A stretch of DNA of 21,513 nt from Candidatus Desantisbacteria bacterium CG1_02_38_46 (GTDB lineage: Bacteria; Desantisbacteria; UBA1551; UBA1559). Both the position numbers and the translations under genes were made by a program. The stretch lies in assembly GCA_001871015.1 (NCBI GenBank), contig MNUO01000052.1:1-21513 (forward strand), given 5' to 3'. This document shows positions 3,379 through 21,290 of the stretch, in pieces; position 1 is the first letter of the stretch; every line of letters starts with the position of its first letter. The notes below the pieces were generated by a model. The model did not search any database. It had not been told where the DNA came from and saw nothing but the letters and a program-made list of their open reading frames with translations.

Positions 3379-3569
3379 CGGTGCGATTCATTGCACTTAT
3401 ATGTCATTCCCGCGCAGGCGGGAATCCAATATTGTAGTTGCCTGATTTATCAGGCTTTTTGGTAGCCATAGGCTTTAGCTTTGTTTGTAGTGGCAGAGTT
3501 TACTCTGCTTGATGTAGCGTTGAGGTTAATCCTCGGCATTATTTTTGTAGCGCCGGGGTTTGTCCCCGG
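3375..3569 (+). repeat. Array of about seven short hairpin repeat units
   Basis: The gap before lexA is packed with inverted repeats, most led by GTAG. The units are: GTAG plus a GTGC/GCAC stem (3375-3396); ATTCCCGC/GCGGGAAT (3406-3425); GTAG plus GCCTGA-TTTA-TCAGGC (3434-3455); a half unit GTAGCCATAGGCTTTAGC (3462-3479); GTAG plus GCAGAG-TTTA-CTCTGC (3487-3508); GTAG plus GTTGAGG-TTAAT-CCTCGGC with two G-U pairs (3514-3536); and GTAG plus CCGGGG-TTTGT-CCCCGG (3547-3569). Lead and loop are similar while stems differ but stay complementary. The GCAGAG unit recurs inside uvrA and the radical SAM gene. Confidence 0.8.
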
Positions 3570-7922: not shown

Positions 7923-10841
7923 ATGGCAAATACAGATAAAATTATAATTCGTGGGGCGAGAGAGCATAATCTTAAGAATATTGATGTGGAGATACCGCGA
8001 AATAAACTGGTTGTAATCACTGGTTTGAGCGGGAGTGGGAAGTCCACGCTTGCATTTGATACACTCTATGCTGAAGGACAGCGTCGGTATGTTGAATCAC
8101 TTTCAGCATATGCAAGGCAATTTCTTGAGCAGATGGAAAAGCCAAATGTGGATGAAATCATCGGTCTTTCTCCGGCAATTGCAATTCAGCAGCGTGCTGC
8201 AAGTCACAATCCCCGTTCAACTGTTGCCATAGTTACTGAAATCTACGACTACCTGCGTGTATTGTTTGCACGCACAGGCATTCCTTACTGTTACAAATGC
8301 GGCAGAAAAATCAAGCGTCAGAGCATTGACGAAATTATTGAGCGAATAATACAGATAACTCGCGATACTAAACAAGATAGCAGAGTAAACTCTGCACTTC
8401 CTCTTACAGAGCCTACTTCGGCAGAGTGCCACTTCCAGAGTGCCTACAGTCGGCTACTTTCGGCCACCACAATAGACCACGACGGTATTCGTATTGACAT
8501 TCTCGCTCCACTTGTAAGAGGAAGAAAGGGAGAATACAGACACATTGTGGACGAGGTAAAAAGGCAGGGATTTGTCAGGGTGCGGATTAATGGAAAAATT
8601 TATGATATATCAGAAGAATTGCCGAAGCTAGCAAGATACAAAAAACATAATATTGAAGTTGTAGTTGATAGAATTGTGCTCACGCCAGATTCCCGCAACC
8701 GTCTTGCTGACTCACTGGAAACTGCATTAAAAATCGGCAAGGGTTTGGTGATGGTGCAGTACAAACGGATGGCGATTTTGTTCTCCGAGCAGTTGTCCTG
8801 TCCAAAATGTGGAATAAATTATGAAGAAATTTCACCCAGGTCTTTTTCATTCAATAGTCCGTATGGCGCTTGTCCCGAATGTTCTGGTCTTGGTGCAAAA
8901 ATGGTTGTTGACCCGGATTTAGTTGTCCCTGACAGAAGTAAATCTGTGCAGGAGGGAGCACTTGAACCCTGGTCAAAAGGAATGGGATTTTATCGCTGGA
9001 AGGCAGCTGCAAGCAACTGGTACTATTCAATGATTGAGGATGCTGCAAAAGAACATAATATTGACCTGAGTCTTGCGTTCAATAAACTTCCAAAAGAGCA
9101 CCAGAATATTTTGCTTTATGGCAGTCCGGAAATTGATTTTGAAGGTATTGTTACCAATCTGGAACGTAGATATAAAGAAACTGATTCAGATAATGTGCGC
9201 GAGGATATCTACGAGAAATACATTTCTTATGTGACCTGCAAAGCCTGCAAAGGTGACCGTCTTAAACCAGAAAGTCTGGCGGTAAAAGTCGGCAACAAAA
9301 ATATTACTGAGATGACAAAGATGTCTGTGCAGGAATCAATGGAATTCTTTTCAGATTTAAAATTGACCCAGCAGGAAAAGATAATTGCCTCTGAAATTAT
9401 AAAGGAAATTAAGGCAAGACTCGGATTCCTTATGAATGTAGGACTTGATTATCTTACGCTTGACCGGACAGCAGAGACGCTTTCAGGTGGAGAAGGGGAA
9501 AGGGTGCACCTTGCAACCCAGATTGGCTCAGGGCTTGTGGGCGTACTTTATATCTTAGATGAGCCCACAATTGGATTGCACCAGAGAGATAATCAGAAAT
9601 TGCTGGTCACACTTAAAAATCTAAGAGACCTGGGTAATACTGTGCTTGTTGTTGAGCACGACAAGGAAACAATTCTGTGTGCTGATTATGTAATTGACCT
9701 GGGCCCGGGTCCTGGAATTCATGGCGGAGAGGTAGTTGCTGCAGGAACAATCAAGGATGTGACAAACTGCTCAAAGTCATTGACAGGAAAATATCTGAAG
9801 GGAGAACTCGAAATTCCTGTCCCTGAGATTAGACGCAAGCCAAAAGGTTTTCTTACGGTCGTCGGCGCAAGCCAGTTTAACCTAAAAGATATCACAGTTA
9901 AAATTCCATTAGGGATTTTTACCTGCGTTACTGGCGTATCAGGTTCGGGCAAAAGTACACTGGTTAATGAAATTCTCTACAAGGCACTTGCAAAGAAAAT
10001 CTATAACTCAAAAGAAAAACCGGGACAATTTAAAAAAATGTTAGGTACTGAAAATATTGACAAAGTCATTATAATTGACCAGTCACCCATAGGTCGTACT
10101 CCCCGTTCAAACCCAGCAACCTATACAGGAGCATTTTCGCCGATAAGAGATGTTTTTGCAATGTTGCAGGAATCACGGGCTCGTGGATATTTGCCTGGCA
10201 GGTTTTCCTTTAATGTCAAGGGTGGAAGGTGTGAAGCCTGCCAGGGAGAGGGTGTTAAAAAAGTAGAAATGCACTTTTTGCCAGATGTCTATGTTACCTG
10301 CGAAGTATGCAATGGAGCACGGTATAATCACGAGACACTTGAAATTAGATATAAAGGAAAAAATATCAGTGAAGTTTTAGATATGATTGTGGAAGAAGCG
10401 CTGGAATTTTTCAAGAACATTCCACGCGTCCGAAGAAAATTACAGATGCTTAACGCTGTAGGGCTTGGTTATATAAAAGTGGGTCAATTTGCAACTACTC
10501 TTTCAGGCGGGGAAGCGCAGAGAGTAAAACTTGCTACTGAACTTAGTAAGATTGGCACAGGAAAGACCATTTATATTTTAGACGAGCCAACAACAGGCCT
10601 TCATTTTGCAGATGTAGAAAAATTGTTGAATGTCCTGCACAGACTTACTGATGCGGGTAATACCGTTATTGTAATTGAGCACAATCTTGAAGTGATTAAA
10701 ACAGCAGATTATATCATTGACCTGGGCCCTGAAGGCGGAGATGCTGGTGGAAGGGTTGTGGTTGCAGGAATGCCAGAGGAAGTAGCTAATAATGGAAAGT
10801 CATACACAGGTCAATTCCTGAAAAAAATGCTAAGTCATTAA
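7923..10841 (+). CDS. uvrA: Excinuclease ABC subunit A (UvrA) with in-frame repeat insertion
   Basis: UvrA is the damage-recognition ATPase of nucleotide excision repair. The 972-residue protein has Walker A1 GLSGSGKST (residues 34-42), zinc-binding CYKC near 122 and CPKCG near 292 with its CPECSGLG partner, first signature [14 protein letters not shown] near 520, Walker A2 GVSGSGKST near 671, [18 protein letters not shown] zinc module, second signature [12 protein letters not shown] near 859 and [10 protein letters not shown] near 885. E. coli UvrA has 940 residues; the excess lies at residues 153-183, where DNA shared with the radical SAM gene interrupts the normal join between IIERI and [16 protein letters not shown]. 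This is in the signature-domain region before the UvrB-binding module, and both sides continue in frame. The first signature motif is slightly unusual (GEGER rather than GEAQR). Confidence 0.97.
8380..8470 (-). repeat. In-frame palindromic element inside uvrA
   Basis: The segment starts with the palindrome GCAGAGTAAACTCTGC (8380-8395). Bases 8380-8430 are the exact reverse complement of 20896-20946 in the radical SAM gene (51 of 51 by eye). The uvrA copy then has about 24 extra bp before a shared GTGGCCGAAAGTA-like end. It encodes [20 protein letters not shown] and following residues, which are foreign to UvrA. Confidence 0.85.
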
Positions 10842-18547: not shown

Positions 18548-18601
18548 GGGGGTCAGACCTCAACATCCAACAACTCAGTTATAAAAACAGGATGTGCCCC
18601 T
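18547..18601. repeat. Long-range inverted repeat between rodA and the radical SAM gene (REP-like)
   Basis: AGGGG (18547-18551) can pair with CCCCT (18597-18601), and CATCC (18564-18568) with GGATG (18590-18594). The GGTCAGACCTCAACATCC wording is similar in style to REP elements of tyrosine transposases. ATTTTTC follows the closing stem, so it could also act as a partial terminator. Confidence 0.45.
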
Positions 18602-18614
18602 ATTTTTCATAGGT

Positions 18615-21290
18615 ATGAAAACCACAATTGAAGAAATTCTTGGGCAAGTTTCAAAGCCAACAAGGTATATTGGCAACGAATGGAATTCCGTCCATAAACG
18701 ATGCACGATGGATGACATGCGAATTGTTCGTGTCGCTCTGGCATTCCCGGACCTTTATGAAATTGGAATGTCCCATCTCGGAATGAATATACTTTATCAT
18801 TTACTTAACCAGCAAGAAGATGTAATTGCGGAGAGGGTTTACGCACCCTGGATTGACATGGAAGAGAGATTGCGTCATAATAAAATTCCTTTATTCAGTC
18901 TTGAGACGCACACACCCCTTAAAGAATTTGATATAATTGGTTTCAGTCTCCAGTATGAAATGTGCTATACAAATGTCCTGACAATTCTTGATTTAACAGG
19001 TATTCCTGTTCTTGCCCGTGACCGCAACGAAGTACATCCTTTAATTATTGCAGGTGGAGCCTGCGTATTCAATCCCGAACCTGTTTCTGAATTTATTGAT
19101 TTATTCGTAATTGGTGAAACCGAAGAATCAATACTTGATATAATGAAAAGATTTAAGGATTTGAAGATTCAAAGATTCAAAAGACAAGAAATATTAAGAG
19201 AGATGGCTAAGATTGAAGGAGTTTATGTTCCTTCACTTTATGAAGTAAAGTATAATTCTGACAGTACTGTGAATTGCATTAAACCCAGATATGATGATGT
19301 TCCATCCATGGTAAGGAAAAGAATCGTTTGGGATTTGGATTCGATGTTTTGTCCTGTAAAACCAATTGTTCCATTTCAATCAATTGTCCATGACCGTGCA
19401 GTAGTTGAAGTTTTCCGCGGTTGTACCCAGGGCTGCCGGTTCTGTCAGGCAGGTATGATTTCGCGTCCTGTCCGGATGCACTCTCTCAATCGTCTGCGCG
19501 AACTTATCACGCCATTGATGGAAAATACGGGGTGGGAAGAAGTCTCTTTGCTGGCATTAAATATTTGTGATTATCCTGACATTGAGGAAACAGTATCGGA
19601 CATTGCAAAGAAATACAGGGAGAAGGGTGTAAATATTTCTCTCCCATCACTTCGTCCTGACAACTTCTCCCTGCACTTAGCTCAACTTATCTCGATGGGT
19701 GCTCGTGTTAAGCCAACCCTTACTTTTGCTCCTGAGGCTGGGACACAGAGGTTAAGAAATATAATCAATAAGAATATCAATCAGGATGAACTGATGAAGA
19801 GTATTGGAAATGCCTATCGTGCAGGATGGGATTCCTGTAAATTGTATTTTATGATTGGTTTGCCCCAAGAGACTGAAGAGGACATAAAAGGAATTGTTAC
19901 ACTTGTAAAAGAGTTAAAAAAAATAGGACAGAAGATAAATCCAAAAGCAAGTATCCGTCCAAGCATTTCCCCTTTTGTCCCTAAATCCCATACACCATTT
20001 CAATGGGAGCCGCAGGAGAGAATTGAATCTTTAAGAGATAAACAGAAGAAAATTCTAAGTGGTTTGAGGAGAATAGAGGTCAGGTGGAACAGGCCTGAAA
20101 TGAGTTTCCTGGAGGGTGTATTTGCACGCGGAGACAGGCGGCTGAACGAAGTGCTTTTGTGCGCATGGAAAAACGGTGCCAGGTTTGATGCATGGGAAGA
20201 AACTTTTAAATTTTCCATATGGGAAAAGGCATTTCAAGAATTTAGAATAGACCCATCATTTTATTTATATCGCAAAAGAGAATATAATGAGGTCTTGCCC
20301 TGGGACCACATTGATACGGGTCTGACAAAAGAATTTCTAATCAAGGAAAACAAAAAATCAAAAGAATCCCTTACCACTCCAAATTGTGTATTTGATGAAT
20401 GCCAGGAATGCGGCGTCTGTGATAAAAAACCGGACAAAAAGGGGACCGTCCCTGACCCCGATGATAAAATGGGGACTGTCCCCATTTTACAACCATCAAC
20501 TAAAGTAAGACAGAGGGTCCGCATAACTTTTAGCAAAGGTGAGGAACTAAAATATATTTCCCATCTTGATTTGCACCGTCTGCTTAAGAGAGCATTGCGT
20601 CGCGCAAATATACCTGTTGCTTTCTCCAAAAGTTTTCACCCACATCCTGAAGTTATATTAGGATTACCTCTTTCAGTGGGGATGATAAGTGATTGTGAAC
20701 TTTGTGATATTTTCTTAAGTGAAAGAATGGAACTGGATGAGTTCATAAGAAGGTTATCCACTCAGTTGCCCGCTGGATTTACACTGAAAGAATTTGAGGA
20801 AATTTTTCTTTCTGCTCCGGCTCTGCCAAACATCATCAATGGAGTAAAATATAATGTAGTGGCAGAGTTTACTCTGCTTGTAGTGGCCGAAAGTAGGCAC
20901 TCTGCCGAAGTAGGCTCTGTAAGAGGAAGTGCAGAGTTTACTCTGCCCGTAGTGCAGGACTTTATGTCCTGCCTTTCTAAAAAAATTGAAGAATTTCTCA
21001 ACCAGGATGAAATCATCGTTCACCGCAAAACTCCAAAGGTTGACAAAGCGTTAAACATCCGCCCATTGATTGAGAATATTGAATGTGTAACGCAGGACTT
21101 TGAATGTGTAACGCAGGACTTTGAATGTGTAACGCAGGACTTTAGTCCTGCTAATAATAATTCTATCACATTTGAAATTTCCCTCAAAATTACCAATGAA
21201 TTCAGTGCCAGGCCCGATGAAGTCATCAGGTCACTTTTAGGACCGGATGCCAGAATTATAGAAATTAAACGCACAGAAATTAAATTTTAA
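18615..21290 (+). CDS. Fused radical SAM protein: TIGR03960-type radical SAM plus TIGR03936/DUF2344 domain
   Basis: The 891-residue protein begins MKTTIEEILGQVSKPTRYIG with GNEWNSVHK, the standard N-terminus of this fusion family. Residues 30-250 form a B12-binding-like region (FPDLYEIGMSHLGMNILYHLLN, GFSLQYEMCYTNVL, GGACVFNPEPVSEFIDLFVIGETEE). The 4Fe-4S radical SAM motif RGCTQGCRFCQ has Cys270, Cys274 and Cys277. PEAGTQRLRNIINKNI and FMIGLPQETEEDI follow. A cysteine cluster (CQECGVC) leads into a repeat-rich linker, and from about residue 634 the DUF2344 domain (ITFSKGEELKYISHLDLHRL, FSKSFHPHPEVILGLPLSVG). Function is unknown. ATG 18615 is chosen over GTG 18594, which lies in a hairpin. The gene carries three separate repeat insertions in frame. 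This family is often followed by ribonuclease G and ribosomal L21/L27 genes; here an IS110 element follows. Confidence 0.92.
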   Translation: MKTTIEEILGQVSKPTRYIGNEWNSVHKRCTMDDMRIVRVALAFPDLYEIGMSHLGMNILYHLLNQQEDVIAERVYAPWIDMEERLRHNKIPLFSLETHTPLKEFDIIGFSLQYEMCYTNVLTILDLTGIPVLARDRNEVHPLIIAGGACVFNPEPVSEFIDLFVIGETEESILDIMKRFKDLKIQRFKRQEILREMAKIEGVYVPSLYEVKYNSDSTVNCIKPRYDDVPSMVRKRIVWDLDSMFCPVKPIVPFQSIVHDRAVVEVFRGCTQGCRFCQAGMISRPVRMHSLNRLRELITPLMENTGWEEVSLLALNICDYPDIEETVSDIAKKYREKGVNISLPSLRPDNFSLHLAQLISMGARVKPTLTFAPEAGTQRLRNIINKNINQDELMKSIGNAYRAGWDSCKLYFMIGLPQETEEDIKGIVTLVKELKKIGQKINPKASIRPSISPFVPKSHTPFQWEPQERIESLRDKQKKILSGLRRIEVRWNRPEMSFLEGVFARGDRRLNEVLLCAWKNGARFDAWEETFKFSIWEKAFQEFRIDPSFYLYRKREYNEVLPWDHIDTGLTKEFLIKENKKSKESLTTPNCVFDECQECGVCDKKPDKKGTVPDPDDKMGTVPILQPSTKVRQRVRITFSKGEELKYISHLDLHRLLKRALRRANIPVAFSKSFHPHPEVILGLPLSVGMISDCELCDIFLSERMELDEFIRRLSTQLPAGFTLKEFEEIFLSAPALPNIINGVKYNVVAEFTLLVVAESRHSAEVGSVRGSAEFTLPVVQDFMSCLSKKIEEFLNQDEIIVHRKTPKVDKALNIRPLIENIECVTQDFECVTQDFECVTQDFSPANNNSITFEISLKITNEFSARPDEVIRSLLGPDARIIEIKRTEIKF
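20441..20488. repeat. GGGGAC-GTCCC hairpins in the linker of the radical SAM gene
   Basis: Two related palindromic units lie back to back. The second has arms AAAATGGGGA (20466-20475) and TCCCCATTTT (20479-20488) around CTG. They encode KKGTVPDPDDKMGTVPIL, a twice-repeated GTVP linker between the radical SAM part and DUF2344. Confidence 0.7.
20856..20972 (+). repeat. Cluster of three GTAG palindromic units within the radical SAM gene
   Basis: The units are GTAG plus GCAGAG-TTTA-CTCTGC (20856-20877); a longer unit (20880-20946) whose last 51 bp (20896-20946) are the reverse complement of 8380-8430 in uvrA; and GTAG plus GCAGGAC-TTTAT-GTCCTGC (20949-20972). The block adds about 40 residues inside DUF2344 between INGVKYNVV and KKIEEFL. 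Confidence 0.85.
21081..21151 (+). repeat. Three 21-bp tandem repeats ending in a hairpin, in the radical SAM gene
   Basis: The 21-bp unit containing GTGTAACGCAGGACTTT occurs exactly three times (21081-21101, 21102-21122, 21123-21143). The last copy continues AGTCCTGC, completing a GCAGGAC-TTTA-GTCCTGC hairpin. Being 21 bp, each copy adds seven residues, ECVTQDF, three times in a row. Confidence 0.9.

Follow-up and report, generated by a model that had tools for sequence, protein, structure and literature searches.

The window analysed here, a stretch of 21,513 nucleotides, is one entire contig (C41) of the draft genome of Candidatus Desantisbacteria bacterium CG1_02_38_46 (1.73 Mb in 133 contigs, 87.8% complete). 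On its forward strand lies uvrA (7923-10838), which encodes a protein of 972 residues and is the draft genome's sole UvrA match (NF001503, 1457.6 bits against a cut-off of 1147). The gene contains an insertion of 41 codons (8358-8480, forward strand; residues 146-186) that is without counterpart in orthologues and solved structures. Inside this insertion sits a palindromic repeat of the REP type. Its core GCAGAGTAAACTCTGC, located by a core pattern search, occupies 8380-8395, while the whole element, recognised in the sequence as a composite REP of 91 nt on the reverse strand, extends over 8380-8470. A near-identical 91-nt variant is found intergenically on contig C109 and again at the end of contig C51.

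The second host in the window is a gene for a radical SAM protein of 898 residues (18594-21287, forward strand; TIGR03960 and TIGR03936), which bears several repeat-derived inserts. Between 20856 and 20972 three of them adjoin one another, all on the forward strand: a 22-nt REP unit GTAGTGGCAGAGTTTACTCTGC (20856-20877), read as VVAEFTL, a composite REP of 67 nt (20880-20946) and a third GTAG-footed hairpin, GTAGTGCAGGACTTTATGTCCTGC (20949-20972, recognised in the sequence). The fold of 20855-20975 gives a z of -5.24. The last 51 nt of the 67-nt composite are the reverse complement of 8380-8430. Sequence comparison thus agrees with the first-pass annotation, which had reported that 8380-8430 and 20896-20946 are exact reverse complements over 51 bp and had placed each copy, with correctly quoted peptides, within a long open frame. 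As a description of the element's extent, however, the 51 bp fall short, being part of the 91-nt composite in uvrA and of a region of three units in the radical SAM gene. Likewise, both strands are open, as had been claimed, in the 51-bp core and in the radical SAM variant, but the 91-nt version has stops in all three frames of its GTAG strand. Two further in-frame features of the radical SAM gene, at 20472-20482 and 21082-21144, are a GGGACTGTCCC palindrome and a set of three 21-bp units in tandem (ECVTQDF). The GGGACTGTCCC palindrome occurs in 23 copies in the source genome and in 23 in the related genome G001, many of them paired. The window's third core copy belongs to an intergenic cluster of three GTAG-footed hairpins (beginning GTAGTGGCAGAG, GTAGCGTTGAGG and GTAGCGCCGGGG; 3487-3568, forward strand).

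An oriented copy of the repeat reads GTAGTG-GCAGAGT-TT-ACTCTGC: next to the GTAG tag stand two unpaired bases, and the hairpin that follows has a stem of 7 bp and a loop of 2 nt. GTAGTG is the exact foot in 57 of 82 mapped cores, the others being GGAAGT (20), GTGGTG (3), ATAGTG (1) and GTCGAG (1), and the loop is TT in 69 of the 82. The GGAAGT foot marks the inner junction of the composite, whose core lies at its far end. The composite itself (46-91 nt) usually starts with GTAGTGGCC, and its own foot is usually GTAGTGG. The same composite, its GTAG foot conserved, recurs at many unlinked sites, and other stems with the same type of foot coexist with it (GTCGAGC, GTCGAGT, GCAGAGC, CCCGAT and others). 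Tandem arrays of 24-30 bp units are also seen. As single-stranded DNA the 22-nt unit folds into a hairpin of -5 kcal/mol (z -4.2, equalled by no shuffle), in which the fold program pairs six of the seven stem base pairs. The repeats are probably copies of one lineage-specific REP family of the GTAG type, which comprises the simple hairpin and mosaics built from the same modules; this family forms part of the joint reading weighed below.

The search of the draft genome for the core, proposed in the first-pass annotation, returned 110 occurrences of the 16-bp pattern GCAGAGTNNACTCTGC, against none for the reversed control pattern. Chance could thereby be rejected as an explanation, and the repeat is clearly not confined to the two genes. 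Copies occur singly and in clusters (1-7 copies per cluster), and several contigs of the draft genome terminate at these repeats. The core was not found in G001, the sole same-order relative searched, and only one other match, in a distant genome, was obtained among the 98 genomes searched. A phage-borne origin was considered and rejected, since the longer form of the repeat has no match in IMG/VR.

For the location of the copies, 336 kb around the matches were fetched and genes were called with a simple codon-based finder (coding fraction 0.86). The copies in these fetched stretches, which are not all 110, form 55 clusters: 34 intergenic (62%), 12 internal to genes, 5 N-terminal, 2 C-terminal and 2 overlapping. 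With 34 of 55 clusters intergenic against 14% non-coding DNA, genes are strongly avoided; about a fifth of the clusters are nonetheless internal. Gaps bearing a REP lie between co-directional genes in 29 of 30 cases, though most gaps in those regions are co-directional. In four flanking genes, the stop codon appears, from the 5-nt spacing, to be the TAG of the REP itself. Pseudogenes split by a REP were also looked for in ten proteins of the flanking genes, five of which had no match, and no two halves of one gene were seen. The internal hosts named by NCBIfam are topA, dprA, leuC, ispE, ispG, a P-type ATPase gene, asd, aroA-cmk, uvrA and the radical SAM gene. Fragments of the composite without the core also occur in larA-, mobA- and mannose-1-phosphate guanylyltransferase-like genes. 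In the mobA-like gene (contig C127, L085 3826-4611), about five 18-bp units (TFGRVP) are present in frame; they stem from the composite REP. In a gene for a PorV-like protein (contig C99, L077 225-1271), a REP appears to encode part of the apparent signal-peptide core (VVAEFTLL).

About a dozen conserved proteins, UvrA among them, carry such repeats as in-frame inserts. When UvrA is aligned with a solved chain, residue 145 of the query is followed by 187, where the chain passes from 164 to 166. Residues 146-186 are missing from about 30 aligned orthologues as well as from the solved chains, so the insert could be rejected as a conserved UvrA domain. Because the segment is absent from orthologues and the repeat is multi-copy, the earlier proposal of a palindromic element inserted into these genes stands. 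AlphaFold2, run on the UvrA alignment, gave a mean pLDDT of 81.7, but residues 150-186, which lie between a helix and a strand, stay under 50, a drop that in part reflects the lack of aligned sequence; the insert is predicted to be unstructured. Compared with solved homologues, Asd and LeuC each have about 30 extra residues and IspE about 60, while IspG has a shorter insert. In ispE the insert consists of seven tandem in-frame 24-bp units.

The in-gene arrays hold a period of 24 or 30. Of their 13 pairs, 12 are spaced by a multiple of three, compared with 18 of 45 elsewhere, a contrast with some circularity, since only copies in an open frame could be called "internal". The lone exception probably lies upstream of the true start. 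The first-pass annotation had suggested testing insertion lengths for multiples of three; the rule applies to these array periods but not to the 91-nt uvrA element, whose length is not divisible by three, so that extra bases must have come in with the element or been adjusted later. Four frames of the repeat are stop-free, and a hand count finds all internal copies in three of them. The fourth (QSKLCHY) is used at none of 13 internal loci, for which 0.75^13 = 0.024, and avoidance of this frame is suggestive only.

The sister species G001 is without this REP, and its orthologues bear unrelated repeats, among them heptamers (uvrA, leuC, ispG, the radical SAM gene), a dprA octamer and, in asd, a palindrome between GGGACTGTCCC copies. 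Microsatellites of 7 and 8 nt, in about 3-6 copies, are numerous in coding genes of G001; overall they stay in frame, and some lie near the protein C-terminus. In ten orthologue pairs, 6 of 14 G001 arrays, listed by hand with stated cut-offs, lie in the loop that holds a REP in the source genome, and 6 of the same 10 loops are affected (p about 8e-5 under uniform placement). The mobA- and larA-like hosts had no match in G001 in the orthologue search and were left out of this comparison. The uniform null ignores that only loops tolerate inserts; the result therefore shows shared permissive loops and not targeting. It is conceivable, though unlikely, that in this order certain loops of conserved proteins repeatedly receive whatever repeat is expanding, perhaps through biased targeting as well as tolerance. 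If so, with REPs in one species and heptamer or octamer microsatellites or palindromes in the other, selfish or slippage DNA would steadily supply new protein sequence.

Enzymes of the TnpA-REP (RAYT) type are known to recognise GTAG-preceded hairpins and to cut single strands in vitro (PMC8266576). The draft genome contains two Y1_Tnp genes of RAYT type, one intact and the other interrupted by a stop. The intact gene (327 aa; contig C109, L081 6886-7866) scores 79.9 bits with NF047646, against a cut-off of 80, and its product has a DnaA-domain-like C-terminus. It sits between 18-bp perfect inverted repeats, GGGTCAGACCTCAACATC, which is a TIRtron arrangement. No RAYT flanked by the present REP was found in the 87.8%-complete assembly. 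A Y1_Tnp fragment on contig C53 was discarded as the cognate RAYT, since by its sequence it looks like a TnpA of IS200/IS605 type cut by the contig end. With the intact RAYT gene lying between inverted repeats and not beside this REP, mobilisation by a RAYT is a step that we infer.

Overall, the best joint explanation, to which a probability of roughly 0.78 can be assigned, is that of lineage-specific GTAG-type REPs that were presumably spread by a RAYT and are kept in genes where they are in frame and in a permissive loop. The REP hairpins would be, or would have been, copied as single strands by a REP-associated tyrosine (HUH) transposase and would land mostly between genes. Survival within a gene would require a net insertion divisible by three, a stop-free frame and a position of the peptide in a surface loop that tolerates it. 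Such copies would then be translated as 10-60 extra residues, with a presumably near-neutral effect on the protein. The nearest relative is only of the same order, and the insertion boundaries are therefore putative; translation of the inserts is presumed.

Three other explanations were weighed against this one. Without any transposase, slippage during replication or template switching at hairpins could create and amplify the repeats, and any repeat would build up in the loops. The tandem 24-30 bp units, the sister species filling the same loops with microsatellites that resemble slippage products and the lack of a REP-flanked RAYT in the assembly all agree with such an origin; yet it would explain the local arrays and not the dispersal of one composite, with its conserved GTAG foot, over many unlinked sites, which makes it improbable as the whole account. 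A separate class of element specialised for reading frames, of the Rickettsia type (RPE), would share the behaviour of in-frame palindromes in conserved proteins, with several frames used and inserts in loops. The parallel drawn in the first-pass annotation is apt in this sense. However, an element with 62% of its clusters intergenic is not specialised for genes, its tag is GTAG whereas PMC3733652 places RPE-4 and RPE-6 in the CGTC class, and among the relatives searched it is absent from all but one distant genome. An RPE assignment is hence very improbable.

The inserts might finally be removed by RNA splicing or skipped by ribosomal bypass, leaving normal proteins. The hairpins do lie in conserved genes, which is compatible with removal but gives it no direct support. 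Neither an open frame nor multiples of three would then be needed, whereas the internal copies seen use stop-free frames, although the reliance on open frames in calling internal copies may have hidden copies that break a frame, and the in-gene arrays keep their period of 24 or 30. Removal is therefore extremely improbable, and RAYT-spread GTAG-type REPs retained in permissive loops are preferred.

On the preferred reading, REP insertion with apparent translation is now seen in an uncultured, deep lineage, where it is dense: 12 of 55 clusters lie in genes, several of them housekeeping genes. The relative with other repeats in the same loops provides a natural test case for the conversion of mobile or slippage DNA into protein sequence. 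The repeats also explain odd peptides such as SRVNSATT, SGRVYSAS and VVAEFTL, which annotators will meet in such genomes.

Among known systems, MITEs measure 70-300 bp and have terminal inverted repeats and a target-site duplication; the 22-nt unit is far shorter. REPtrons and TnpA-REP (RAYT) systems (PMC2817692, PMC8266576) share the GTAG-preceded hairpin substrate and the presence of RAYT-type genes, but the intact gene of the source genome is flanked by terminal inverted repeats (TIRtron type) and not by this REP. The Rickettsia palindromic elements (Ogata et al. 2002, cited in PMC3733652) are likewise in-frame palindromic inserts in conserved housekeeping proteins. They are set apart by their tag (CGTC and not GTAG), and the present repeat is mostly intergenic and belongs to an unrelated bacterium.

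The closest counterpart is the GTAG REP superfamily. In Di Nocera et al. 2013 (PMC3733652), GTAG REPs are defined and reported inside genes in several species, many of them repair genes. More than half of the intragenic REPs are dimers or groups encoding 20-30 residues, and double inserts are present in both O. terrae uvrA genes and in a Thioalkalivibrio uvrA. The same paper describes the TAG of the tag serving as a stop codon and identifies intragenic R. conorii CGTC repeats as RPE-4 and RPE-6. With intragenic GTAG-REPs, some of them in uvrA, thus already published, the system can no longer be called undescribed, as had been proposed. Shared with the superfamily are the terminal GTAG, the two unpaired bases ahead of the stem (a trait of GTAG-1 and GTAG-2), the 7-bp stem and the 2-nt loop, together with more than 100 copies, singly and in clusters, mostly intergenic, the TAG stop and the inserts in genes including uvrA. 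The features by which the class is recognised (GTAG end, hairpin palindrome of 20-50 nt, high copy number, mostly intergenic location near the 3' ends of genes) are all present. The comparison covered anatomy, copy number and location. The present repeat differs in its composites, which reach 91 nt and have GGAAGT as a second foot, in the seven tandem in-frame copies of ispE and in its deep-branching uncultured lineage. The element fits the GTAG class by every tested feature except the flanking RAYT; the phenomenon is not new, and the repeat is, judged by its architecture, one of the known GTAG REPs and probably a new family of them.
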